This document shows, piece by piece, positions 3,966 to 18,181 of a stretch of DNA of 21,335 nucleotides (position 1 is its first letter; each line of letters begins with the position of its first letter). The notes under the pieces are model-generated. The model ran no database searches. It saw only the letters and a list, made by a program, of their open reading frames with translations, and was not told the origin of the DNA. The DNA lies in IMG/VR virus record IMGVR_UViG_3300001979_000006, positions 1-21,335 of that record; one strand, written 5' to 3'. The translations under genes were made by a program, and so were the position numbers. The DNA is from a virus.

Positions 3966-4100
3966 TCAATCTAGGTCCATTGCATCCTTTCCACATTCGC
4001 CACAAACGGCTTCGCCGCGACGGAGGGGTGGATATGGAATCGGAATGAAGGCGCCACAGAATGAACAGTGCAAGCCTCCAACATATAGCTTATATTTCAT
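3966..4100 (-). CDS. Zinc-ribbon microprotein (44 aa)
   Basis: The minus strand reads MKYKLYVGGLHCSFCGAFIP at the start and ends CGECGKDAMDLD. The two Cys pairs, CSFC (12-15) and CGEC (33-36), can bind one zinc in a small zinc ribbon, with IPIPYPPLRRGE between them. The ATG (4100-4098) overlaps the TGA of the metallopeptidase gene as ATGA, and the next gene starts one base after its stop, so it fits the operon exactly. No partner is known; single zinc ribbons often mediate protein or nucleic acid contacts. Confidence 0.7.
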   Translation of the reverse strand: MKYKLYVGGLHCSFCGAFIPIPYPPLRRGEAVCGECGKDAMDLD

Positions 4101-4699
4101 TTCCTATTGGTGATCCAGTCGTTCATGCGTTCAAATACGCGGGGAGGGGCGCTTGTTACCATCAGCATTGTTCTGGCATCCAAAGTAACAACCGGCTTTA
4201 GTCCAGAATCGATCAGCGCCGCGTATGTTTTAGGTCGGATTTTGCTGAGAAGGTCTGGGTTGGTAACGAACAGACGGAAGATTTCAGCAAACCATTCCAT
4301 GTCGTTCGGACAATACGATGTGATTCGCTTTTCTCCTGACCGCTTGCGAATCTCGGTGGAGAACAGCATTGCACCCCGATTCCGATAGATGTCAACCCCA
4401 GTCTTGACTTCATCGACATGATGTCCTAGTTCGTGTTGAATCACCCCATAAGGGGTACGGTCAGAAATGAAACCCGCCCAGCTGTAGTTGGGATTTTGGT
4501 GCGCACAAAGCCCTACCCCAACATATACATGATTGCGACGATAGTAGCCGCAGGTCGCAAACCGCTTGATCTTCTGGTACTCAGGATCATTCTCATCATC
4601 AAGAATGTGTAGTGTCGGCATACGAATATTGTTCTTTTCACAGAACATCGTAGCGATGTTGACCCCAAGATTTGCCAGCTGCTTTTTGTTCGTGCTCAT
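4097..4699 (-). CDS. Putative zinc metallopeptidase (HExxH)
   Basis: A 200-aa protein carrying VIQHELGHHVDEV, with the zinc-binding HExxH at residues 89-93. About 45 residues on, MEWFAEIFRLFVTNP supplies a glutamate (E139, or E135) as the likely third zinc ligand, the layout of gluzincins. The N-terminal half has HVYVGVGLC and a Trp-containing loop, probably the strand that lines the active site. No signal peptide is seen, so it should act in the host cytoplasm; the substrate is unknown. Both ends are joined to neighbours by ATGA overlaps. It could be an anti-host or anti-defence protease, or a protein-processing enzyme. It does not look like a prohead protease, which would be a serine enzyme near capsid genes. 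Confidence 0.78.
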   Translation of the reverse strand: MSTNKKQLANLGVNIATMFCEKNNIRMPTLHILDDENDPEYQKIKRFATCGYYRRNHVYVGVGLCAHQNPNYSWAGFISDRTPYGVIQHELGHHVDEVKTGVDIYRNRGAMLFSTEIRKRSGEKRITSYCPNDMEWFAEIFRLFVTNPDLLSKIRPKTYAALIDSGLKPVVTLDARTMLMVTSAPPRVFERMNDWITNRK

Positions 4700-7295: not shown

Positions 7296-7626
7296 AATTT
7301 TTGATCTGTTTTGAATAGTCGAAACAAGGTTCTGTTCTTCGCTTATTATCGACGTTCGGAACGCTGGTGTTTGTTTTTGGATCGAATAGCTCATCGGTGA
7401 AGAAGATGCTCATTGCTCCATCGCCCTCATATACAATGAAGGAACGCCCGATGAAATCCTTCCTATACATTTTCTTGTAGCTGCCATAGCAAGCCCCGTC
7501 GATGCCCAGGCTGGACGTCCACATGGATTTGTATTTCCATAGAGTCTGTTCAGCCCGATACATCTCAAGCTCAAATGCAGCAATCGGACATTCTTCGACC
7601 AGGTCCCAGAATTTTACTTTTTCCAA
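7282..7626 (-). CDS. Hypothetical protein (114 aa) with TTG start
   Basis: The first codon is TTG at 7626, giving MEKVKFWDLVEECPIAAFEL. It follows AGGAG in the end of telA by 8 bases, a strong site that supports the rare start. The body is aromatic-rich (LWKYKSMWTSSLG, SIFFTDELF) with IGRSFIVYEGDGAM, probably an alpha/beta domain. It overlaps the stop of telA by 13 bases, so it is probably coupled to TelA. No named family. Confidence 0.7.
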   Translation of the reverse strand: MEKVKFWDLVEECPIAAFELEMYRAEQTLWKYKSMWTSSLGIDGACYGSYKKMYRKDFIGRSFIVYEGDGAMSIFFTDELFDPKTNTSVPNVDNKRRTEPCFDYSKQIKNYGRL

Positions 7627-8777
7627 GAAAGCATCTCCTGCTTCATCGAATCGCGTAGCATGCTAATCTTGGCAGAAGCCTGTTGACGCTCTTGGCGTCC
7701 AGCTTCCTGAATTTGCTTGACTTGATGAACGCTATCGATCAGCTGCTGTTGCATATATTCCAACGTTTCGATATCGACCACCGAGCGCTCCGATGACTTC
7801 GCCACCGCGATTGCGTTCTGATTGTTCAATGCTGCTGCCTTACGGAAAAATTCGTTCGTCTTGTCGTCCATCTGATTACCCAATTCTGCGTTTTCCTTCT
7901 GACGCAGAGCTAGAATCGTCATAGACAGTTGCTTCTTCCAGGCAGGAATCGTCGTATTGATCAGATCGTTGAATTTCTCAACCATTGCCACATTACCAGC
8001 TTGAATCTGACGAATCTCCGGAGCCGTCAGGAGCGCGACCTGTTGCATGCGCTTCAAGCGATCAACCTGTTTCTCCCACAGTTTGATTCGCTGCTCATAT
8101 TCCTGCACTGATTGAATGAAAAATTGATCAGTGGAGCTTTCGGCCTCCTGCTTCTTGGCTTTATACTCTGCATTCATGTTTACAATCAGGGCTTCCGCTG
8201 CTTCGATGGAATAACCAAGTTCATGGTATTCCTGCATATTCTTTTCGTAAAGCTGATCCAAGAAGCGATTGTCTTCCCGCATCACATTTTGGCGGCTGCT
8301 CAGGTCTTGTCCGATCTTTTCGATAGACTTGCTTGTGTCTTCAAACTGAGCCAGGACTTCAACCTGCTTCTTCTTGAAGAAGTTCGTCACCTTACCGATG
8401 AAACCCTTATTCTTGTCGATGTTCAGATCATCAACATTCACTTGTGACGTCAGAGCCAGAATTTGGGTAATACCATCACCAAAATCCCCCATCTTGCCGG
8501 TTGTAGTTCGTTGAAGGACGGTATCCGACAGCGCGGCGACTTCCTTACCTGCTTCAGTGCCGAATTCGCTGATTGCCATCTGATCAGTCAGCGCCCTGGC
8601 CTTCACCAGTTTGTTTGACGCTTGAGTCGAGACATTGGCAACCGCATATTCTCGCTTCGGAGCTTGCTGGATAGCGGAGAAATCCGCAAGTTTCTCCGGG
8701 TACATGAGATTAACAGATGTGTCCTTAATGACCTCAGCGGTCGCGTTGCCAAAAAGGCTGTCATATTGTTTGGCCAT
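7614..8777 (-). CDS. telA: TelA-like toxic anion (tellurite) resistance family protein
   Basis: A 387-aa, mostly helical cytosolic protein. Family hallmarks are FLDQLYEKNMQEYHELGYSI with EAAEALI, the central LTAPEIRQIQAGN, then TTIPAWKKQLSMTILALRQ and ELGNQMDDKTNEFFRKAA. TelA/KlaA proteins go with ter genes and cell-envelope stress; the biochemical role is not settled. A disordered Gln/Ser/Thr-rich N-terminus (about 1-75) precedes the helical core. It sits in its own operon (promoter near 10414) rather than in the TerC/TerD operon that lies just upstream, but the two are adjacent and same-strand. Confident family call; substrate unknown. Confidence 0.9.
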   Translation of the reverse strand: MAKQYDSLFGNATAEVIKDTSVNLMYPEKLADFSAIQQAPKREYAVANVSTQASNKLVKARALTDQMAISEFGTEAGKEVAALSDTVLQRTTTGKMGDFGDGITQILALTSQVNVDDLNIDKNKGFIGKVTNFFKKKQVEVLAQFEDTSKSIEKIGQDLSSRQNVMREDNRFLDQLYEKNMQEYHELGYSIEAAEALIVNMNAEYKAKKQEAESSTDQFFIQSVQEYEQRIKLWEKQVDRLKRMQQVALLTAPEIRQIQAGNVAMVEKFNDLINTTIPAWKKQLSMTILALRQKENAELGNQMDDKTNEFFRKAAALNNQNAIAVAKSSERSVVDIETLEYMQQQLIDSVHQVKQIQEAGRQERQQASAKISMLRDSMKQEMLSWKK

Positions 8778-8782
8778 GATGT

Positions 8783-8908
8783 TTATTTGTCAGTTCGTAG
8801 AAATTCGTGTTTGCGGGCAAAGATACGCATTAGACGCGCGTATTCTTCGTGATTACCTCTGGATTTCTTCCAACACCAATTGATCCAGTATTCCAACTTA
8901 TCATTCAT
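8783..8908 (-). CDS. Trp-rich microprotein (41 aa)
   Basis: It reads MNDKLEYWINWCWKKSRGNH, then EEYARLMRIFARKHEFLRTD and K. It is basic, with three Trp in the first 13 residues, suggesting a helical peptide that binds membrane or protein. The ATG at 8908 overlaps the stop of the gene at 8905-9747 as ATGA, and it ends 5 bases before telA. The ORF fills the gap exactly. No family known. Confidence 0.65.
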   Translation of the reverse strand: MNDKLEYWINWCWKKSRGNHEEYARLMRIFARKHEFLRTDK

Positions 8909-9747
8909 AGCAACCTCTTCAGGGCTGCCGAGATATCATCCAAGCTATCATCGCCCTTGATCAAAGCGTTTCGCAGGACGTTCTCAACCACTGGAATAAC
9001 CGTCAACTCCAGTTCTTCTAAGAAGGTCTTGTTCTGGCGGCAGATGTCTTCCATGTTGGTCATTTGTCCCCGATTCATAACCATCAAAGACTGTGACTTC
9101 ATGAACATCTCTTGCCGACGATAGATCAGGTCTTTGACCGTATCGTCCTTGGAACGATCAACAATATAATCCAAGGTGTTCATCGTGTTCACGATGTCTT
9201 CATAAATCGCATCCAGAGTCTTCTTCGCCGTCGCAATACCATCAAGGAATGGGTCTAGATGATATTGCACCAAATTACGATACAAAGCAACTGCCTTCTC
9301 TGTGTTGCGCTTCACTTCCTTGCGGATCGTATCGATGTCGCGAGGCTGCTTAGATGAGCGTAGAAACGAGAAAACGCCTCTGGGCTTATCCTCGCCTTCG
9401 ATCTGTCGGATAGCCTCCAGGATGTGTGTCTTAGGCTCATCTAGACGCTTCTTCAGTTCGGAGAAGTTACTAACCACAACGTCCACGCATCGATTCGCTT
9501 CCGTTGCCTCTGCTACGTGGTGGGCTCCGATGTCTGAAACTTGCGTCGGTGTGATCTTGTCCGGAGAAATACCGTTCAGGATATAGTTAATGCGTTTGGC
9601 TGTGGTATTCACATGGTGCAGACTACACCAATTTTGAATATCCTCCAGCGCATCCTGCTTCTTTACTTCCCCGAACAGGTTGCGAGAGTCAGTTTGAAAC
9701 AAAGACATTCTCTTGTTTTCTCCGAACAGTTTGCTATAGTCGGTCAT
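8905..9747 (-). CDS. Helical protein upstream of TelA (uncharacterised; ter-cassette partner)
   Basis: A 280-aa protein, nearly all helix: a polar N-terminus (MTDYSKLFGENKRMSLFQTD), then CSLHHVNTTAKRINYILNGI, VVSNFSELKKRLDE, a basic loop FSFLRSSKQPRD, and long heptad-like helices to the end (TELELTV-like LEELELTVIPVVENVL). In bacteria TelA is often paired with an XpaC/YceG-type partner; this gene sits where such a partner would be, but I see no clear XpaC signature. The ATG at 9747 lies 4 bases after the zinc-ribbon stop, so translation is coupled. A longer frame to 9861 overlaps that gene and is rejected. Confidence 0.72.
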   Translation of the reverse strand: MTDYSKLFGENKRMSLFQTDSRNLFGEVKKQDALEDIQNWCSLHHVNTTAKRINYILNGISPDKITPTQVSDIGAHHVAEATEANRCVDVVVSNFSELKKRLDEPKTHILEAIRQIEGEDKPRGVFSFLRSSKQPRDIDTIRKEVKRNTEKAVALYRNLVQYHLDPFLDGIATAKKTLDAIYEDIVNTMNTLDYIVDRSKDDTVKDLIYRRQEMFMKSQSLMVMNRGQMTNMEDICRQNKTFLEELELTVIPVVENVLRNALIKGDDSLDDISAALKRLL

Positions 9748-9751
9748 GTCA

Positions 9752-9943
9752 TTACCGAACGAAAATTTCCTTACCGCAGGGAGGGCACTTGATATAACGA
9801 TCAATATCCGTGTGTCCTGAATAGTCAGTCGATTTGCGTTGTTGAATATCGTTCGGAACATATTCCAAGGTTGCCCCGCAGTTATGACAAATACACTGCT
9901 TCACAACCGAATGATGCGGGGTCGTGCTTACGACAGTTACCAT
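9752..9943 (-). CDS. Zinc-ribbon small protein (63 aa)
   Basis: Two Cys pairs, CICHNC (17-22) and CPPC near 53-56, frame a middle segment LEYVPNDIQQRKSTDYSGHT. This matches a common T4-like small zinc ribbon of the form 'CxxCG..LEY...D...DY.G..D....I.CP.CGKEI'. The ending CPPCGKEIFVR is typical. The ATG shares a TAATG junction with the stop of the gene before it (9943). It probably binds one zinc; partner or target unknown. Confidence 0.78.
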   Translation of the reverse strand: MVTVVSTTPHHSVVKQCICHNCGATLEYVPNDIQQRKSTDYSGHTDIDRYIKCPPCGKEIFVR

Positions 9944-10371
9944 TACAGACTCCGAGATTTCTTAACTTGATTATTATACCAGGCGCGTGCCATCTTGACC
10001 AAGACTTCATGACGAAGCTGTTCAGGGCCGCTTTTATATTTCAAGCGAGATTCTGCAGCACCGATGATGACGTCTTGCCAGTATCGGGTCTGAATGGCTA
10101 GGAATCTTGGTTGGAGTTTGTAATAATCGAAGATTTCCCAAAAGTCAGAAAGGTCGCGGCGATCCCCATCGATATGGAGTGCGCTACAATGGTCAATCAA
10201 AAGTCCCTTGCGGCAATATGCTTTCTTTTTGATATAGATCAAACCTTTGTTTTCGGGGGATTCCTTTTCCCAATCTGCGATAGCCGATTCATAAATCGGC
10301 ATCTCTTCCTTGCGAAAGTTAGTCAGCAGATCGCTTTCAAAGATTTCGTCGATACTGTAATAATCTTCCAT
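9943..10371 (-). CDS. Hypothetical protein (142 aa), first gene of TelA operon
   Basis: It starts MEDYYSIDEIFESDLLTNFR and continues with a helical body (YESAIADWEKESPENKG, KKKAYCRKGLLIDHC, DLSDFWEIFDYYKLQPRFLA) and a basic tail NNQVKKSRSL. No known motif is recognised. The ATG at 10371 follows GGAG by 9 bases. It is the first gene after the terminator of the ter operon and a candidate -10, so it should lead the TelA transcript. Its stop overlaps the zinc-ribbon start (TAATG). Confidence 0.72.
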   Translation of the reverse strand: MEDYYSIDEIFESDLLTNFRKEEMPIYESAIADWEKESPENKGLIYIKKKAYCRKGLLIDHCSALHIDGDRRDLSDFWEIFDYYKLQPRFLAIQTRYWQDVIIGAAESRLKYKSGPEQLRHEVLVKMARAWYNNQVKKSRSL

Positions 10372-10408
10372 GATATAGCTCCAGTATGAGATTCACATTT
10401 ACCCGCTA

Positions 10409-10414
10409 ATTATA
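10409..10414 (-). promoter_or_regulatory. Candidate promoter -10 (TATAAT) of TelA operon
   Basis: A perfect TATAAT on the minus strand (10414-10409) lies 37 bases before the ATG at 10371, just past the terminator. No good -35 is seen at the right spacing, since it would fall in the terminator stem. Confidence 0.35.
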
Positions 10415-10428
10415 ACGATGTAAATGCG

Positions 10429-10457
10429 AAAAGGGAACCCCTTTCGGAGTTCCCTTT
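10429..10457 (-). terminator. Intrinsic terminator at the end of the ter operon
   Basis: On the minus strand: AAAGGGAAC (10457-10449), a GAAA-type loop region with extra GC pairs, then GTTCCCTTTT ending at 10429. A 9-bp stem plus T-run follows the 32-aa membrane peptide gene. Confidence 0.85.
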
Positions 10458-10464
10458 ATGATGC

Positions 10465-10563
10465 TTAATTATGGAATGTGTCGGCTAGCATTCCCAACAT
10501 CATGATAATGAAAGCAACGATGTACATTCCAAGGACGATATCATCAATGCTCAGATCGATCAT
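10465..10563 (-). CDS. Single-membrane-helix microprotein (32 aa)
   Basis: It reads MIDLSIDDIVLGMYIVAFII then MMLGMLADTFHN. A hydrophobic stretch from about residue 9 to 26 forms one membrane helix with acidic residues on the N-terminal side. The ATG (10563-10561) overlaps the TGA of the VWA gene as ATGA, and the terminator follows its stop by only 7 bases, so it is the last gene of the ter operon. It may act at the membrane with TerC or the VWA proteins; this is inferred only from position. Confidence 0.65.
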   Translation of the reverse strand: MIDLSIDDIVLGMYIVAFIIMMLGMLADTFHN

Positions 10564-11606
10564 ACCGATGCCGGCCAGTAGAGAACCGACGAACCTTCAA
10601 ACAACTTGCGGTTGGTTGATGTAGATTGTACAAAGATGTCGAACTTGCCATGATCACCGGGGACCAGACGAACATCACCAACGTGAGGAAGGCCCAGCAA
10701 ATCACGAGCAGCCGCACCACCGTAGATCGCGCCAGACTTCTTGTCCCGAATAACAATCTTCTTGTAATCCTGAACACGACGTTCTGGCTTGGTCAGTTCG
10801 TAGTATGCTGCCCCTTTTGTATAGGCACGACCACCAAGACGACGCTCACAAACATCCTTGATCTGATCCCCGTCTTCCTTCTCCAGTACCTTCCAGATAC
10901 TGACTTGTTGCGAGATATCAGTCAGAGCGGCTTTAACGTCCTTGACCGAAACATCGTTCAAATTCGTGTAGAAGCTGGTGGTGCTCTTAGCCCCGCTGGA
11001 ACGTGCGCTATAGAAATTGCGCATTGCGGTATTCGTAGCAGCCGAAGCAACTTCAACACCCTTGGTAGTTTGATCCCATTCCAGAATGTTGCCATCCGGC
11101 AGACCAAGTTCGCGGGTAAGTCGAGCCTTATAACCGCGAGGAACACGGAACACAAAGGTCCAACGATCGGTGGCCTGTAGACGACGAATTTCTTGACCAA
11201 GAGCCGGACCAGACCAACGACGCGAAGAGTTGTCTTCGCCGTCAGTGATGACCATGACCAGGAATGAAACCGTTTCTTGGTTTGCATCCGGAACACGCTT
11301 GAATTGTTCGATCAGCTCACCAACCGAATCAAACAACGGAGTGGATGAACCGTTGGTATCATAGTAGTGTTCATCGACCGGCTTGAGGGCCGTAACCGAT
11401 GCCAGCTGAACATCGAATTTGTTGATCGCAGGACGACCAATACCGCAATCGATCACCGATACAATCGTATCTTGGTTTTGAGCAATTGCCTCTTCCTTAA
11501 TAGAAGAGATATTGCTGTTATAGTCTCGGGCAGCAGCTTGTCGAATGTGCGTCATCGACGCCGAACGATCCCGGCTAATTCCGATGTAATTTTTGATATG
11601 ACTCAT
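10560..11606 (-). CDS. VWA-domain protein of the ter cassette (348 aa)
   Basis: A von Willebrand A domain with a full metal-ion-dependent adhesion site: DRSAS (13-17), Thr in GSSTPL (near 89) and Asp122 in VITDGEDNSS. The N-terminus KNYIGISRDRSASM is typical of cytosolic VWA proteins. The C-terminal third (about 250-348) is a separate basic domain with GGRAYTKGAAYYELTKPERR and LFEGSSVLYWPAS, a possible partner-binding or ligand domain. VWA proteins of ter systems are thought to build metal-dependent complexes with TerD-family proteins. It is joined to its neighbours by ATGA overlaps at both ends. Confidence 0.88.
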   Translation of the reverse strand: MSHIKNYIGISRDRSASMTHIRQAAARDYNSNISSIKEEAIAQNQDTIVSVIDCGIGRPAINKFDVQLASVTALKPVDEHYYDTNGSSTPLFDSVGELIEQFKRVPDANQETVSFLVMVITDGEDNSSRRWSGPALGQEIRRLQATDRWTFVFRVPRGYKARLTRELGLPDGNILEWDQTTKGVEVASAATNTAMRNFYSARSSGAKSTTSFYTNLNDVSVKDVKAALTDISQQVSIWKVLEKEDGDQIKDVCERRLGGRAYTKGAAYYELTKPERRVQDYKKIVIRDKKSGAIYGGAAARDLLGLPHVGDVRLVPGDHGKFDIFVQSTSTNRKLFEGSSVLYWPASV

Positions 11607-11785
11607 TTGTTTTCCTTTGTGTTGTCAAGCCAACGGACAAAATCCTTTTTCTTCCACTTCCCGGTCTTCACCCATTCAAATACCATATCCACCGGAATGG
11701 AAGAAATTTGTTCCGGAGTGAGACGACCGGGATGTTTGATATCATCCGCACGGATATAGTCAGTCTGACGATTATTGATAGTCAT
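11603..11785 (-). CDS. Small hypothetical protein (60 aa)
   Basis: It starts MTINNRQTDYIRADDIKHPG and continues RLTPEQISSIPVDMVFEWVK, with a basic end TGKWKKKDFVRWLDNT. The phrase 'F-x-W-V-x-T-G-x-W ... D-F-x-x-W' resembles small proteins common in T4-like phages. It sits between TerD and a VWA gene with ATGA coupling to the latter (11606), so it may be a ter accessory. No function known. Confidence 0.68.
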   Translation of the reverse strand: MTINNRQTDYIRADDIKHPGRLTPEQISSIPVDMVFEWVKTGKWKKKDFVRWLDNTKENK

Positions 11786-11835
11786 ACAATCAAAAATAAC
11801 GCAATGACCGAAAGTACGATGATGACGATATCCAC
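11782..11835 (-). CDS. Possible 17-aa membrane peptide with GTG start
   Basis: GTG at 11835 starts the peptide (M)DIVIIVLSVIALFLIV, wholly hydrophobic after Asp2. It begins one codon after the TerD stop in the same frame, and its TGA (11784-11782) overlaps the ATG of the next gene at 11785 as ATGA. It fills the only uncoded gap in this operon. There is no good ribosome site, so it may not be translated. Confidence 0.35.
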   Translation of the reverse strand: MDIVIIVLSVIALFLIV

Positions 11836-11838
11836 GTT

Positions 11839-12441
11839 TTAGAATCCAGGAACCTTGAACGCGGTGCAGAAGTCGCTAAGACCCTTTTGGAAGCCTTCAC
11901 CAACTGCGTTCAGAACCCATTCGCCGCTATCGTTCTTCTTGAACTCCACGAACAGCAGAGCCGTCGCAGTCGATGCGTCTTCATCCAGTTGGAACTTGGC
12001 CCGTTCTGCTCCGGTATTGTCGTAGATCGTGGCATATGCCTTTTCGATCTGACCGAAGTTTTGCTTGCGCTCAGCGGCCTCGTGAATGGTGATCACGATA
12101 GCGACACGGGAGGCTTCAGGCGGCAGCTTCTTGAAATCGATTTCAATGCTTTCGTCGTCGCCCTCTCCGCTGCCGGTGCGGTTATCGCCGCTCGACACCA
12201 CAGCGCCGTTGCCGATGTTTTGTTGGTTGTAGTAGCACACCCAACCGTCCTTTTGTGGAGGGATGGCCAGGACTGCACCGAATGGAGAGCCATCTTCACG
12301 GAGCACGAAAGCCGTGGCATCCAGGTCAAAGTCTTGTTGGGTGTCAAACTTCTTCTCGGACCAACCCAGACCAACCTTGACGAAATCCAGACCACCAGCC
12401 TTTGCGAGATTGAGCTTACCGCCCTTTTGGAGTTGCAGCAT
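11839..12441 (-). CDS. terD: TerD family protein (calcium-binding stress protein)
   Basis: A 200-aa TerD domain of normal length: LQKGGKLNLAKAG at the start, VGLGW, then the DFDLDATAFVL core (37-47), the acidic loop GDNRTGSGEGDDESIEIDF (about 85-103) and a C-terminal GEWVLNAVGEGF. Asp37, 39, 41 and the acidic loop are the usual calcium ligands of the family. TerD proteins are cytosolic or membrane-peripheral partners of TerC and act in tellurite resistance, phage inhibition and colicin resistance in bacteria. The start follows AAGGAAAC. It lies 11 bases after the 74-aa gene next to terC, so they are cotranscribed. Confidence 0.95.
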   Translation of the reverse strand: MLQLQKGGKLNLAKAGGLDFVKVGLGWSEKKFDTQQDFDLDATAFVLREDGSPFGAVLAIPPQKDGWVCYYNQQNIGNGAVVSSGDNRTGSGEGDDESIEIDFKKLPPEASRVAIVITIHEAAERKQNFGQIEKAYATIYDNTGAERAKFQLDEDASTATALLFVEFKKNDSGEWVLNAVGEGFQKGLSDFCTAFKVPGF

Positions 12442-12452
12442 GATTTGTTTCC

Positions 12453-12677
12453 TTAAACTAGGTTCTTGATAAGTTGATACAGTTCATTCATTTGGTACGT
12501 TTTACCGTCACTGAAACCTTCATCATATGCGTTCATAACGCCGTCCGTTAGGTCATCATAGTCGGTAAATTTGCAGCCAGGATACGCCTGGCGCACGATC
12601 TTGAGAACAAGGGTCTTCAATTCCAGAGGAAGACCCAAGCCATTGATCTTTGCTTCTACTTCAGGCGTGAGCCGCAT
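12453..12677 (-). CDS. Small acidic protein between terC and terD (74 aa)
   Basis: It starts MRLTPEVEAKINGLGLPLEL and runs through LKTLVLKIVRQAYPGCKFTD into an acidic stretch YDDLTDGVMNAYDEGFSDGK, ending in a helix. The D/E-rich YDDLTDG...DEGFSDG could bind calcium like an EF-hand, but no clear loop is seen. The ATG at 12677 is inside the last codons of terC, a 17-base overlap in another frame, preceded by AAGGAAG. Position in the ter operon suggests a helper role; otherwise unknown. Confidence 0.65.
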   Translation of the reverse strand: MRLTPEVEAKINGLGLPLELKTLVLKIVRQAYPGCKFTDYDDLTDGVMNAYDEGFSDGKTYQMNELYQLIKNLV

Positions 12678-13665
12678 CCGCTTCCTTCTTGGACAACAGG
12701 GAGTGAACAACCGAAATACCCAGGATCAGCGCCGCCGACAGACCGGTAACAACTTCAGGAATCTCAACTACCGTGGATGCATACATCATCGAAGCCAGAA
12801 CACCAATCGACCAGAATGCGCCGTGTTCCAGGAACTTCAAACTACCCAGAGTGCCGACCTCAACCATATGGAGTGTCATCGACCGGACGAACATTGCACC
12901 AATACCCAGGCCCAAGGCAATCAGAATGATGTTGTTCGAGATAGCGAAGGCTCCCACAACCCCATCAAACGAGAAGGATGAATCCAACACCTCCAGATAG
13001 ATGAAGGACGCCAGACCGGCTTTCGCACCGACATTGCTCTTGTCCATCAGTTCACCGAAAATCTTGACTGCAATCCAAGCCAAACCGCCCCAGGCAGCTG
13101 CCTTGAAGAATTCTGGACCGGTGTGAAGGAAAATCGTCGTGGCGCCGGCAATGACCAGAGTCAGAATAATTGCCGAAGCTGCTGCGTGTTGACCGATCTT
13201 GCCAATGAACTGTAGAATTTGTTCCACACCAGGAATCCAATGCTCATCCTTTTCCTGATCCATGAAGAAACTCAGGAATACAAGCATCAGGAACGTCCCA
13301 CCGAAACCCGCGATACTCACATGCGCCGCCGTAACGGTTTGTGCATATTGTGCCGGATTTTCAAAAGGGAGCAGGAAAGATTGAGTCAGACTCAGGGCGC
13401 TTGTCCCCCAAACAATCAGAATCGGGAACAGAAGACGAACACCGAAGACGGCAAGCGCCATACCCCAGGTCAGGAATCGATGACGCCATTTGTCGTCCAT
13501 ATCCTGGAGCACCTTGGCATTCACGACAGCGTTGTCGAGCGACAGCGAAGTCTCAAGAACCCCGAGGATTGCCGCCAGAAGAGCGCCTTGAGGGCCGGCC
13601 AAGAGGAAGGCCAGGACCATAGCACAGACCGTAAAGATCAGACTGCTTTTGTAATGTTGAAGCAT
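12661..13665 (-). CDS. terC: TerC-like membrane protein (DUF475 family)
   Basis: A 334-aa multi-pass inner-membrane protein, about 8-9 helices. It carries two matching motifs seen in the TerC/DUF475 group: LETSLSLDNAVVNA (37-50) and LEVLDSSFSFDGVVGAFAIS (about 224-243). Their acidic residues (E38, D44, E225, D228, D234) sit in the membrane and are thought to coordinate metal; TerC relatives act in metal homeostasis and metallation. A C-terminal region is Ala/Lys rich. The start is preceded by AAGGA. In the operon it lies with TerD and two VWA proteins, the usual ter complex. Confidence 0.92.
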   Translation of the reverse strand: MLQHYKSSLIFTVCAMVLAFLLAGPQGALLAAILGVLETSLSLDNAVVNAKVLQDMDDKWRHRFLTWGMALAVFGVRLLFPILIVWGTSALSLTQSFLLPFENPAQYAQTVTAAHVSIAGFGGTFLMLVFLSFFMDQEKDEHWIPGVEQILQFIGKIGQHAAASAIILTLVIAGATTIFLHTGPEFFKAAAWGGLAWIAVKIFGELMDKSNVGAKAGLASFIYLEVLDSSFSFDGVVGAFAISNNIILIALGLGIGAMFVRSMTLHMVEVGTLGSLKFLEHGAFWSIGVLASMMYASTVVEIPEVVTGLSAALILGISVVHSLLSKKEADAAHA

Positions 13666-13678
13666 TTTGTTTTTTCCT

Positions 13679-13840
13679 TTATTGTTGAACTACAAGTTCA
13701 TCACCAACGAAAGCCCATTCTTTATACTTCCCACCACGGCGGATTTCCCAGGCAATATGGTTATCTGTCTTGACAAACATATCACCATCGTATTTGAAAT
13801 TCATTCCGATGTTCAGTTCAGAGAATGCGATTGCTTTCAT
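13679..13840 (-). CDS. Small hypothetical protein (53 aa)
   Basis: It reads MKAIAFSELNIGMNFKYDGD and continues with MFVKTDNHIAWEIRRGGKYK and EWAFVGDELVVQQ. This is a small beta-barrel-like peptide, of a kind frequent in T4-like genomes, with alternating strands. The ORF fits exactly between a VWA gene and terC (stop 13 bases before terC). No family name known. Confidence 0.65.
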   Translation of the reverse strand: MKAIAFSELNIGMNFKYDGDMFVKTDNHIAWEIRRGGKYKEWAFVGDELVVQQ

Positions 13841-13857
13841 TTGTATTGACCAAAGAA

Positions 13858-14559
13858 TTAATTGGAACTTTGGGACTTGACCCAGTTACACAGATCGTCG
13901 TTGAGCAGCGTTTCGTACATCTGCTCATCGGTGGTCTTGTTGAGATTCGGGAAGGTCACGAAACCGACATGATCATGTTTGTTTGCCAGCACGCGAAGCA
14001 GCGAGAAGTCTGCATTGCCAACGCCGATCAGCTGGATGTACATATTCTCATTGCCAAGCATATGCACCAGTTGATCCGCTTCCGCGCTGTTACCTTGATC
14101 TTCACCGTCCGTGATGAACATCAAATATGACGGTTCTGTATCTTTCGTCTTGGCGCCGAACAGCGACCGGATGAAGCCAGGAGCATTGCCCTTGACATCT
14201 CCGTGGATCTTCTTCAGCGCTTTGCTATAGTGCGTGCCGGACCAAAGGATGTTGGAAGGAACTTGTGGAATGAACTTGTGATTCACATACGAATCAAAGT
14301 CATCCGGAGTGATAGGTTCCACTTCGCAGACATCCGAACCAAAGGCATAAGCCTCCAGAGATTGGTTGTCATCGAAGCGCATTGCCACCGGAATCAGGCG
14401 GTTCACCAGTTCTTGGATCGTGCCGTTGTTGAATAGCGGATGGATCGAACCAGACACATCAAGACACATCTTGACAGCCAGTACGATGTCTGTAGGAACA
14501 TTGCGCTTTTCCAGTTGGAGGCGCACAATTTCCTGCTTTTTCTCAAGACTGAGGGACAT
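13858..14559 (-). CDS. VWA-domain protein of the ter cassette (TerF/TerY-like, 233 aa)
   Basis: It has a complete metal-binding site: DVSGS (34-38), Thr109 in SGTHYSKA and Asp151 in MFITDGED. The ends LVHMLGNENMYIQLIGVGN and HVGFVTFPNLNKTTDEQMYE belong to the same Rossmann-like fold. This single-domain form resembles the VWA part of TerF or stand-alone TerY. The start follows CGGAGAAAT. It is the first ter-type gene after the three paralogues. Together with the longer VWA gene it gives two metal-binding proteins in one operon. Confidence 0.9.
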   Translation of the reverse strand: MSLSLEKKQEIVRLQLEKRNVPTDIVLAVKMCLDVSGSIHPLFNNGTIQELVNRLIPVAMRFDDNQSLEAYAFGSDVCEVEPITPDDFDSYVNHKFIPQVPSNILWSGTHYSKALKKIHGDVKGNAPGFIRSLFGAKTKDTEPSYLMFITDGEDQGNSAEADQLVHMLGNENMYIQLIGVGNADFSLLRVLANKHDHVGFVTFPNLNKTTDEQMYETLLNDDLCNWVKSQSSN

Positions 14560-14583: not shown

Positions 14584-14928
14584 TTATTGAGCCTTGATCT
14601 CTCGGATCATATCCTTGATCCAAAGAAGACGGTATTGCTGTAGATACTTTGGGTTAACAGAATCTCCAGCAGGAACCCCGTTGGCCGCTAGCCAGCGATA
14701 TACGTATGTATATTCAATGCGTTTGGCAATCTCGTCTGTGATATCAAACGAAATGTCTCGTAGCGGACTATTTTCAAAAATACGGTCCCCAGCCTCTTCA
14801 ACGTGATTGCAAACTGCTGTATCGAAACAGTCCGGGTCTTCAATATTCTTGATACTGCGATAAGCAGCGTTCAGAATTTTGACGGCAGCACGTTTCTTAC
14901 GGTAGGTATTGATATATCTACTAAACAT
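14584..14928 (-). CDS. Tandem paralogue 3 (114 aa), unknown
   Basis: It starts MFSRYINTYRKKRAAVKILN and ends QQYRLLWIKDMIREIKAQ. It shares with the next two genes the N-terminal pattern MF...I.T...K.AA.K.L..A, a middle helix with DEI..R....YV..WL, and the YRL.WI..MI.EIK ending. The ATG at 14928 has a TAATG junction with the previous stop. An extended frame to 14967 is not preferred because the family starts at MF. Helical, cytosolic, function unknown. Confidence 0.75.
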   Translation of the reverse strand: MFSRYINTYRKKRAAVKILNAAYRSIKNIEDPDCFDTAVCNHVEEAGDRIFENSPLRDISFDITDEIAKRIEYTYVYRWLAANGVPAGDSVNPKYLQQYRLLWIKDMIREIKAQ

Positions 14929-15263
14929 TACGATTCCTTGATTTCGCGGATCATATCTTTGATCCACAGAAGACGATATTGGCGAGCATATAAATTGCCT
15001 TGGTCATCATTAAGATGATTTCTGGCATCAGCTGAGTTAAAGCGAAGCCACGTTGTTACGTAGGCGCTATCAGGCCCGAGCCGCTCCGAGATTTCATCAC
15101 AGATTGCATCCGCAATCTTATATTCTTTTTGAGTCGAAGCTGATGCGGATACCGCACCACAAACTGCAGTTGCATGTCCATCTCGAATACAACGATAGGA
15201 TGCATTCAAAAGCTTGATTGCGGTCCGCTTTTCGCGGTAGGTCTTGATGTTCTCGTTAAACAT
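14928..15263 (-). CDS. Tandem paralogue 2 (111 aa), unknown
   Basis: It starts MFNENIKTYREKRTAIKLLN and ends ARQYRLLWIKDMIREIKES. It is a clear relative of its two neighbours, with a helical body and the shared C-terminal YRLLWIKDMIREIK. The middle is Ala/Ser rich (VSASASTQKEY). The start overlaps the previous gene by 8 bases and the stop shares TAATG with the next. Confidence 0.78.
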   Translation of the reverse strand: MFNENIKTYREKRTAIKLLNASYRCIRDGHATAVCGAVSASASTQKEYKIADAICDEISERLGPDSAYVTTWLRFNSADARNHLNDDQGNLYARQYRLLWIKDMIREIKES

Positions 15264-15597
15264 TTTGTTCCTTGATCTCCTTGATCATAGAATCGATCCA
15301 GCGCAGACGGTATTCACGAGCCAACACATAAAATTGAGAATGATCGGCATCATGCAAAGCTTGAGCTGGAGAATGATTATTACGCAACCAACTTGTCACA
15401 TAACCATAGCCTTCCAAACGGTGCGAGATTTCATTCCGAATAAATTGAGAGACGCGAATATCCATGTAACTCTCTTCAGAATCTTCCACGGCATTGCATA
15501 CCAAACTATTGAGGCCGTCTCTAATTTTGTTGTGAGCGCTTTTCAGCAATTTGATTGCTGCTTTCTTTTCATCGTCGGTTTTGATATTGCTAAACAT
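15256..15597 (-). CDS. Tandem paralogue 1 (113 aa), first gene of ter operon
   Basis: It starts MFSNIKTDDEKKAAIKLLKS and ends AREYRLRWIDSMIKEIKEQN plus V. It is the most divergent of the three copies but keeps the ..IKT....K.AAIKLL and YRL.WI..MI.EIK patterns. The start at 15597 matches the other copies; an in-frame ATG at 15606 is the alternative. It begins 20 bases past the conserved downstream box of a strong promoter and leads the operon. Confidence 0.75.
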   Translation of the reverse strand: MFSNIKTDDEKKAAIKLLKSAHNKIRDGLNSLVCNAVEDSEESYMDIRVSQFIRNEISHRLEGYGYVTSWLRNNHSPAQALHDADHSQFYVLAREYRLRWIDSMIKEIKEQNV

Positions 15598-15616
15598 TCG
15601 GATCATTCCGCGTCGC

Positions 15617-15661
15617 GTTAATCGATAGGAGAAGTATATACATTCCATATGGTGAAGTAAA
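15617..15661 (-). promoter_or_regulatory. Sigma70-like promoter with conserved downstream box (copy 2)
   Basis: On the minus strand: -35 TTTACT (15661-15656), 17-base spacer, -10 TATACT (15638-15633), then TCTCCTATCGATTAAC. It drives the paralogues and the ter operon. The -10 is one base off TATAAT. Confidence 0.78.
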
Positions 15662-15714: not shown

Positions 15715-15921
15715 TTAACCGATAATGCAGGTCTGGAGACCAAACTTTGTTGTTTCATTTCCATCCCGGAATCTAACTCTAACCTTCTTCTCGGTGAATC
15801 CAATCACTTGAGCTAGCATCAGAGCATATGTGTAGCCGTCCTGTGTTGTGGCCACTGTCATTCCTGGTTGGATAACCCGCTTGGCGCAGTCCTTGAATAC
15901 CTTCACTTGACCATCGCCCAT
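15715..15921 (-). CDS. Small hypothetical protein (68 aa), SH3-like
   Basis: It starts MGDGQVKVFKDCAKRVIQPG and is beta-rich throughout: MTVATTQDGYTYALMLAQVI, then EKKVRVRFRDGN. This strand pattern suggests a small SH3- or KOW-like barrel. The ATG at 15921 lies in the tail of the gene before it (19-base overlap). It is the last gene before the terminator. No family name known. Confidence 0.68.
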   Translation of the reverse strand: MGDGQVKVFKDCAKRVIQPGMTVATTQDGYTYALMLAQVIGFTEKKVRVRFRDGNETTKFGLQTCIIG

Positions 15922-16172
15922 TTGGTGACCTCCACTTTAATCGGCTGGACTTCATAGACAGACGGATCGGTGTACTCATAGTCTGTATAGTAGCTTCCGG
16001 ATCGACCTTCTTGGATACAATAATATTTGTCTTGATACTTGACGATGGTTTCTCGGTTTTCATACTTATGATCTACTTCCCAACTGCCTCGTTCAATATA
16101 TTCAAGTTCCTTACTGCTAATTTCCCACAGTTGTAGGATTTTATCAATAGTTTCTTTGCTTACCATATTCAT
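15903..16172 (-). CDS. Conserved phage hypothetical protein (89 aa)
   Basis: It starts MNMVSKETIDKILQLWEISS and has a beta-rich second half: ETIVKYQDKYYCIQEGRSGS, YYTDYEYTDPSVYEV. The phrase 'Y...RSGSYYTDYEY.DP.VYEV' is one I recall from phage proteins of unknown function. The ATG at 16172 overlaps the previous stop (ATGA); an ATG 6 bases further on is also possible. Confidence 0.72.
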   Translation of the reverse strand: MNMVSKETIDKILQLWEISSKELEYIERGSWEVDHKYENRETIVKYQDKYYCIQEGRSGSYYTDYEYTDPSVYEVQPIKVEVTKWAMVK

Positions 16173-16426
16173 TCCATCAGTTTGATTCGAATGCCGCGAT
16201 AGTAATACTCACATTTGGGTACAGCGAAAATAGATTCACTGATACAGGCCGGAGCATATTCAATATAAACGATCCCCTGTTGAACAAGCATATCCGCTTC
16301 ATCTAGGAAGGCTGCGGTTTCATATTCATCTAGGATGATTCGATGAATCTTCTTGTCTGAGGCTCTTGCCTCAATATAAGCGTTCTCAAGGTCTTGAACT
16401 ACATCTGTGATATAACGAATTTGCAT
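16169..16426 (-). CDS. Small hypothetical protein (85 aa)
   Basis: It starts MQIRYITDVVQDLENAYIEA and continues through a helix-strand alternation (KIHRIILDEYETAAFLDEAD, GIVYIEYAPACISESI) to YYYRGIRIKLME, a small alpha/beta fold. AAGGG lies 8 bases before the ATG, partly in the end of the Acb2-like gene. It is coupled to the next gene by ATGA. No family recognised. Confidence 0.7.
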   Translation of the reverse strand: MQIRYITDVVQDLENAYIEARASDKKIHRIILDEYETAAFLDEADMLVQQGIVYIEYAPACISESIFAVPKCEYYYRGIRIKLME

Positions 16427-16427
16427 A

Positions 16428-16691
16428 TCAACCCTTATAAGAAAGCCTAGCGGCTCTTTGATTCAGTCGATTCAAAGCACCTCCTAGATAGGCAATCGCA
16501 TCGATATTTTCGCGACAGGGGGACTTATCATTTAGCTTCCCAAGGCGATGAATCAGAACCTCAATTAGTTCCTCGTTTGTCGTGCCGTCATACACAACCT
16601 GACGATCAGCTTTCTTTAGAAAACGAATGTGTTGGTTGCCTGCCAATGCATAGATATGTTGAGCGTCGATAGAATCGTCAATTTGTCGCAT
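16428..16691 (-). CDS. Acb2/Tad1-hairpin-like small protein (candidate cyclic nucleotide sponge)
   Basis: An 87-aa helical protein. Its second half reads TTNEELIEVLIHRLGKLNDK then SPCRENIDAIAYLGGALNRL and NQRAARLSYKG. This resembles a widespread phage family of the form 'TNEEVLE.LI.RL..L....PCREN.LAI..LEEAL.WL..RT..R', which I associate with the Acb2/Tad1 hairpin domain. Acb2 and Tad1 bind cyclic nucleotide signals of CBASS and Thoeris immunity. The C-terminus is degenerate here (no GVEGT end). The ATG at 16691 has a TAATG junction with the helicase stop, so it is expressed with the replication genes. Family likeness is from memory, so the function is a hypothesis. Confidence 0.72.
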   Translation of the reverse strand: MRQIDDSIDAQHIYALAGNQHIRFLKKADRQVVYDGTTNEELIEVLIHRLGKLNDKSPCRENIDAIAYLGGALNRLNQRAARLSYKG

Positions 16692-18181
16692 TATCCAAAA
16701 TTCCAATCATTTGTTGAAGTCTTCTCTTCCTTGGCATCTTTCATCCAGAAAGGCTTTTCTCCCAGATCATCCCCGGCTCTGCGGCTAATGATTTGAGGTT
16801 GTGGTCCGCTTGGTTCTTCTCGCGGTGGTTGAGTCTTTTGAGGAATATTATTCGGCAAACCTAGTTGATCCAGTTCTTCTTCGCTCAGTCCTGAAGCTTG
16901 ACTATCAACTTCATAGAACTTTTGCTTATCTGGATTCAGACCCAATACAAACTTGCCTTTATAGCTGCTATATCGATTCTTGATGATCTTACCAATCACC
17001 ATACCGCGTTGGATCATCTCTTCTGGAGTCAGAATAGCAAACATAAAGTCCGCCGTTGCTGCAATACCAATTGCCAAAGAGATATTACCCAGATTCGCAT
17101 CCGAAGCGCCTTGAGTTGCTCTATCGAATTGAACCGCAGTCCAGATAGGAACAGAAACATCTTCCTCTTGAGCAAACGCACGAATCTCTTCAGCCACCGA
17201 TGTGAAGTATGTGTTTGTATTACCCTTAGCAGAAGCTGGTAGCTTGGAAGATGCACAAATCGTCAGATAATCGATACAGATCATATCCGGAACAAATTTG
17301 TTCTTAATCCGTAGCTCTTGGAGTAGATGCCTGAAATGACCAACGTGGGCAGAACCTGCGGGGAATTCCTTGACCATTAAACGACCGGCAGACTTGCGCT
17401 TGAGTTCATTGATTCGGTTCATATATTGAACCTTCTGTAGCGCAAAGACCTGATCAAAAGTCATATCCATGTTCGCTACGTCAATACGCTCACGGCATGT
17501 CATTTCGTCCATCTCCATAGAGATATACAAAACATTCTTACCGCGCATCAGCCATTCGGAAGCTTGCTGAATCAAGTGGATCGACTTACCACCGTTAATC
17601 GGAGCAAGAACAACATTCAGAGTCTTGTCCTTAATTCCATTCTTCGTTACCTTGTTTAGGATCGGAAGATCAAACGGATGTCTTGCTTGATCAGAGTGGA
17701 GCATATCATAATGAGACTCGGCATCTTCCCAATAATCATGACCCACGTGAGTATCAAACGAGACGGACAGGGCATCCATCAACATTCCAGGAATAATATT
17801 TGGATCTACGTCCTTTGTATTACCCTCAGCGATATCGATTGCCTTATACATCGCTTGGAACAATGCCTGTCGCTTACAATGTTGCTCGGTCTCATCGACT
17901 AGCCACTTGAAAGAGGTTCCTTCAGCATCCGGCTCAAAACCCTTAATAACTCCCAGGACTTCCTCAAAGAAACCCTCATGGAGATTGCTATTAGTAACCC
18001 CAATAGCAAGTGCCTCCTTAGTTGGAGGCACTGTATACTTTCCTACAAAGTCCTTGATGGACTTGAATACATACTTGTCAGCTTCGCTGCTAAAGTAGTC
18101 TTCAGACAAAAACGGTAGAACGGTTCTTAGGTATGGTTCATTAAAAATGAGATTGTTAAGAATGATACGTTCAATTGCCAC
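16691..18181 (-). CDS. 41: DnaB-type replicative helicase (T4 gp41-like)
   Basis: A 496-aa hexameric 5'-3' helicase with an N-terminal helical domain (about 1-150) and a RecA-like motor. Walker A is APINGGKS (193-200) and Walker B is MICIDYL with Asp304; SMEMDEMTCRERI follows the motor's first strand, as in DnaB proteins. A later TAVQFDRATQGA is the sensor region, and IIKNRYSSYKGKF holds the arginine-finger region. The C-terminal tail (about 440-496) is polar, Pro/Glu rich and probably contacts the primase or loader. The first codon is GTG (18181), overlapping the previous stop by 11 bases. The slightly longer tail is the only difference I see from T4 gp41. Confidence 0.95.
   Translation of the reverse strand: MAIERIILNNLIFNEPYLRTVLPFLSEDYFSSEADKYVFKSIKDFVGKYTVPPTKEALAIGVTNSNLHEGFFEEVLGVIKGFEPDAEGTSFKWLVDETEQHCKRQALFQAMYKAIDIAEGNTKDVDPNIIPGMLMDALSVSFDTHVGHDYWEDAESHYDMLHSDQARHPFDLPILNKVTKNGIKDKTLNVVLAPINGGKSIHLIQQASEWLMRGKNVLYISMEMDEMTCRERIDVANMDMTFDQVFALQKVQYMNRINELKRKSAGRLMVKEFPAGSAHVGHFRHLLQELRIKNKFVPDMICIDYLTICASSKLPASAKGNTNTYFTSVAEEIRAFAQEEDVSVPIWTAVQFDRATQGASDANLGNISLAIGIAATADFMFAILTPEEMIQRGMVIGKIIKNRYSSYKGKFVLGLNPDKQKFYEVDSQASGLSEEELDQLGLPNNIPQKTQPPREEPSGPQPQIISRRAGDDLGEKPFWMKDAKEEKTSTNDWNFG

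Follow-up and report, generated by a model that had tools for sequence, protein, structure and literature searches.

A divergent Tad1-family protein lacking the C-terminal tail is encoded by an accessory gene at the end of a phage gp41-like helicase gene

Introduction

Tad1 proteins exemplify how phages counter immunity that is signalled by nucleotides; tested members of the family soak up bacterial alarm molecules. The Tad1 gene of SBSphiJ7 was discovered in a phage able to evade Thoeris, and the Tad1 protomer consists of an N-terminal antiparallel sheet (b1-b4) followed by two C-terminal helices (a1-a2) (review PMC12043709). The same review states that the pocket for gcADPR and dinucleotides is lined by one protomer's tail, and that trinucleotides are bound separately, at the trimer interface.

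In this study, we analyzed a 21,335-nt stretch of phage DNA (IMG/VR virus record IMGVR_UViG_3300001979_000006, positions 1 to 21,335; here called the window) that encodes an 87-aa protein related to these Tad1s. The window protein shares with SBSphiJ7 Tad1 (UPI13470.1, annotated as Tad1), CbTad1 (7uav) and CmTad1 (8kbb) the sequence family and the arrangement of four strands followed by two helices. It is considerably shorter than SBSphiJ7 Tad1 (142 aa) and lacks the C-terminal tail, R-G-V-E-G-T, that the Tad1s carry. With the Acb2 protein T4 Vs.4 (PDB 7uq2) it has in common the two-helix hairpin of the PF24729 clan, but Acb2 has no N-terminal sheet and gives no usable sequence match to the window protein.

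Results and discussion

The Tad1-family gene lies at 16428..16691 on the minus strand and comprises 87 codons and a TGA stop. A sequence-only reading of the window had described this open reading frame, its motifs and its coupling to the helicase gene, and all of this was confirmed exactly, including TNEEL, HRLGKL, SPCRENIDAIAYL and ALNRLNQR. The start codon overlaps the stop codon of a gp41/DnaB-like replicative helicase gene (16691..18181, minus strand; phrog_19, E 8e-91; PF03796) in a TAATG at 16689..16693 (minus strand), as read from the sequence. At the other end, the TGA is separated by one base from the ATG of a gene for an 85-aa protein of unknown function (16169..16426, minus strand). 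The G+C content of 44.3%, compared with 43.5% in the helicase gene, gives no sign of recent foreign origin. The gene is probably translated together with the gp41 helicase gene; the earlier statement that the protein is made with replication proteins holds as far as gene position and the start/stop overlap carry it.

Searches of Pfam and NCBIfam with the window protein alone gave no match, and PADLOC left it unmatched. The hairpin profile PF24729 (Acb2_Tad1_hairpin), which had been suggested as a check, did not match the window protein alone even at E 1, short of the curated cut-off; the same profile was matched at E 0.1 or better by 30 of the 37 sequences of the family alignment. A clear signal came from phrog_2428 (PHROG 2428), which matched residues 19-81 with an E value of 4e-12 and all 37 alignment members. 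Against the PDB, the window protein alone gave a marginal match to a Tad1 chain (E 0.034), and a profile built from six family members, including the window protein, reached CmTad1 8kbb at 8e-26 and CbTad1 7uav at 3e-15. With a Tad1 profile built from 36 relatives and excluding the window protein, the window protein scored 67.2 bits (E 4.7e-19), compared with 6.0 bits for the best of 1000 shuffles. On this leave-one-out profile, SBSphiJ7 Tad1 scored 124.6 bits, CbTad1 79.6 bits and T4 Vs.4, the one Acb2 sequence compared, 1.4 bits.

As a query for close relatives, the window protein alone retrieved two loci, and alignment queries gave more. Relatives in other phages share 44-50% local identity with it. 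The closest is a protein of the 249-kb record IMGVR_UViG_3300037312_000330 (L001), 49% identical over residues 8-82, which pairs with the window protein in a tree of 107 rows (support 99/91). The terminal branch of the window protein is long (1.24), and the wider placement of the protein, which depends on few columns, is uncertain. The L001 protein keeps the tail, as NVEGT, as well as R113 (CbTad1 numbering) and has a longer strand hairpin, all of which the window protein lacks.

An AlphaFold2 model of the monomer, computed from the alignment of 37 sequences, has a mean pLDDT of 88 and shows four short strands (b1-b4) within residues 13-34, followed by helices a1-a2 at 39-56 and 60-86. The protein had been described as helical from the sequence; in the model it is not purely so, since the strands precede the two-helix hairpin. 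This topology, of a predicted and not a solved structure, is the Tad1 order given in the review, and the input alignment of Tad1 relatives favours such a fold. In a Foldseek search against the PDB, the top 19 matches were all Tad1 chains (E 2e-3 or weaker). VIA-align ranked CbTad1 first with a Z score of 8.8, aligning all 87 residues to CbTad1 16-117, and full-length matches to 7uav, 8kbf and 8kbb had Z scores of 8.4-8.8 and rmsd values of 2.3-2.9. T4 Vs.4 reached Z 7.0 over 58 residues in the hairpin region. Since unrelated rows reached up to Z 8.0, little below the 8.8 of this small hairpin protein, the structural evidence is by itself modest; the weight of the fold match comes mainly from its first rank, its full-length coverage and its agreement with the sequence profile.

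A Tad1 fold of the window protein monomer is thus a well-supported prediction, and the structure prediction proposed with the sequence-only reading bore out a Tad1-like fold at the level of the monomer. Profile, fold and phylogeny together support assigning the window protein to the Acb2/Tad1 clan and, within it, to the Tad1 side. The earlier label "Acb2/Tad1-like" can be kept for the clan and for Tad1, and is dropped for Acb2 in view of the score of T4 Vs.4 and the N-terminal sheet. Acb4 was also considered as an identity and was set aside, as its authors call Acb4 structurally unrelated to Tad1 and Acb2.

The degenerate C terminus noted from the sequence proved to be real. A tail following the second helix (R-x-x-R-G/N-V-E-G; R..(V/I)xG) is present in 101 of the 104 other distinct sequences, and the window protein ends before it, without R-x-x-R-G-V-E-G. 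At 87 residues, compared with a median of 104, it is the shortest of 105 by a rough estimate of start sites. When other tail-less sisters were sought, only L015, L069 and L129 had no tail, and the tree places none of them near the window protein; an abrupt change of sequence suggests that their loss is possibly due to frame errors in the contigs. No other phage was found to carry this tail-less form.

The core of the protein is conserved. In CbTad1 numbering, for which the last CbTad1 residue was taken as 124, consistent with the residue range of the VIA alignment, five columns are nearly invariant among the 107 rows: G65 (106), E at column 69 (106), R78 (106), N92 (105) and R109 (106). All five are kept in the window protein, where they are G36, E40, R49, N62 and R79 (R79 corresponding to R109), and they are shared with the Tad1s, apart from a serine of CbTad1 at the E40 position. 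Other positions differ from CbTad1. The R113 column holds arginine in 102 of 107 rows and is L83 in the window protein, with an arginine one position earlier; the W105 column, tryptophan in 89 of 107 rows, is R75. F82 is replaced by L53, leucine being the commonest residue among the relatives in that column. We take F82 and N92 to belong to the first site, for gcADPR and dinucleotides, and R109 and R113 to the second, for trinucleotides.

We favour, with reasonable but limited confidence, the reading that this Tad1-family protein, divergent and tail-less, acts as a functional sponge for some nucleotide signal; its accessory gene adjoins the end of the gp41 helicase gene. Homology makes the sequestration of a defence signal the most likely function. 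The protein would form the Tad1 dimer or hexamer and bind a nucleotide signal of Thoeris or CBASS, thereby keeping the effector inactive. Absence of the tail makes it less likely that the usual ligand is bound in the usual way; the assignment to the family rests on homology in profile and fold. With the tail absent, R113 changed to L83 and W105 to R75, a ligand site may be lost. The gcADPR/dinucleotide pocket is expected to be weakened or changed, because it is lined by the tail of one protomer (review PMC12043709). The trinucleotide site, with R79 kept but L83 in place of R113 and an arginine one position earlier, may or may not survive.

The missing tail itself allows three readings, namely, a new ligand, reduced activity or decay. 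The new ligand, suggested in the sequence-only reading, is possible but not probable: a minimal, tail-less Tad1 of a single phage lineage, encoded beside the helicase gene, may sequester a signal different from those of known Tad1 proteins, or may use the remaining trimer site to take up trinucleotides only. A natural tail-less form with an otherwise conserved core would in any case offer a ready test of which part of Tad1 sets the choice of ligand.

It is rather unlikely that the gene is a Tad1 in decay, its frame still open but its product, deprived of the binding tail and of one conserved arginine, no longer binding any signal. The loss of a tail found in nearly all relatives, the replacement of R113 and W105 and the long terminal branch would fit such a course, whereas the intact frame, the tight junctions with both neighbours, the five retained near-invariant residues and the well-predicted fold speak against it. 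The nearest relatives, only about 50% identical, are too distant for a selection test on the tail-less gene.

Comparison with a relative found by a helicase search showed that this candidate signal sponge is encoded by an accessory gene. This relative (L075) is part of a 170.7-kb phage contig, and its helicase and UvsX are 82% and 83% identical to those of the window. Both share the gene order uvsX, 103-aa gene, helicase, 85-aa gene, phrog_8421 gene, vWA, TerC and TerD, apart from an HNH-like ORF before the L075 helicase gene and extra genes in the window. In L075, the joint TTTTGGATAATGCG, read directly from the sequence and containing the same TAATG, leads the helicase gene straight into the counterpart of the 85-aa gene, which marks the other edge of the extra Tad1-family gene. 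The 85-aa protein is 30% identical to the L075 product (E 1e-7); tblastn at E 1 did not find this counterpart in L075, and the match is weak and partly positional. A search of the whole L075 record (170 kb) with the Tad1 profile gave no match. A close relative therefore lacks the Tad1-family gene at precisely this position. As the window additionally holds 89-aa and 68-aa genes and three phrog_8421 copies compared with one, the interval is variable. These two genomes are compatible with gain in one lineage or loss in the other. An accessory gene at this site makes the interval from gp41 to vWA, TerC and TerD worth searching for further counter-defence genes.

The position beside the helicase gene also raises the question of whether the Tad1 fold serves some other purpose here, such as that of a small protein acting together with the helicase or with another replication protein. 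In addition to the overlap with the gp41 gene, the L001 gene likewise overlaps a DNA-metabolism gene, albeit with different neighbours (an SbcD-like gene, between UvsX-like and clamp-loader genes), and in one group of related phage contigs a DnaB-like helicase gene lies 0.6-0.8 kb downstream of the Tad1-family gene. Yet the gene is absent beside the 82% identical helicase gene of L075 and is therefore not needed for the helicase. Other members have different surroundings: adjacent RNA ligase and prohead-protease inhibitor genes in Thanatos-2, a nearby lysin gene in Lactococcus P1046, and portal-like and terminase-like genes (labels assigned by eye) in L008. Closeness to replication genes recurs in the family and is not general, and we regard a role of this kind as improbable.

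That the protein is an Acb2 and not a Tad1, binding cyclic nucleotides only, is largely refuted and hardly credible, as the common hairpin, the short length and the Z score of 7.0 to T4 Vs.4 stand against a score of only 1.4 bits for T4 Vs.4 with the family profile, an N-terminal sheet in the model that Acb2 lacks and the Tad1 chains at the top of the structural ranking.

Several other features were observed around this locus. The HNH-like ORF of L075 (3507-4001, type assigned by eye) immediately precedes the helicase gene there and is missing in the window. The region downstream of the Tad1-family gene in the window holds the 68-aa gene and the 89-aa gene (15903-16172, minus strand), whose product matches phrog_2294, labelled ribonucleotide reductase; the protein is far too short for such an enzyme, and the label is probably inherited. 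The three phrog_8421 paralogues, of unknown function, are adjacent at 14584-15648 (minus strand). A tellurite-resistance-type set spans 7614-14559 (minus strand) and comprises TelA (7614-8777), TerD (11839-12441), TerC/DUF475 (12661-13665) and a TerF-like vWA protein (13858-14559), the order of vWA, TerC and TerD being kept in L075. At 4097-4699 (minus strand), the window encodes a 200-aa protein with a zinc-metallopeptidase-type motif, HELGHH, for which Pfam gave only a match below threshold, to a zincin-type domain.
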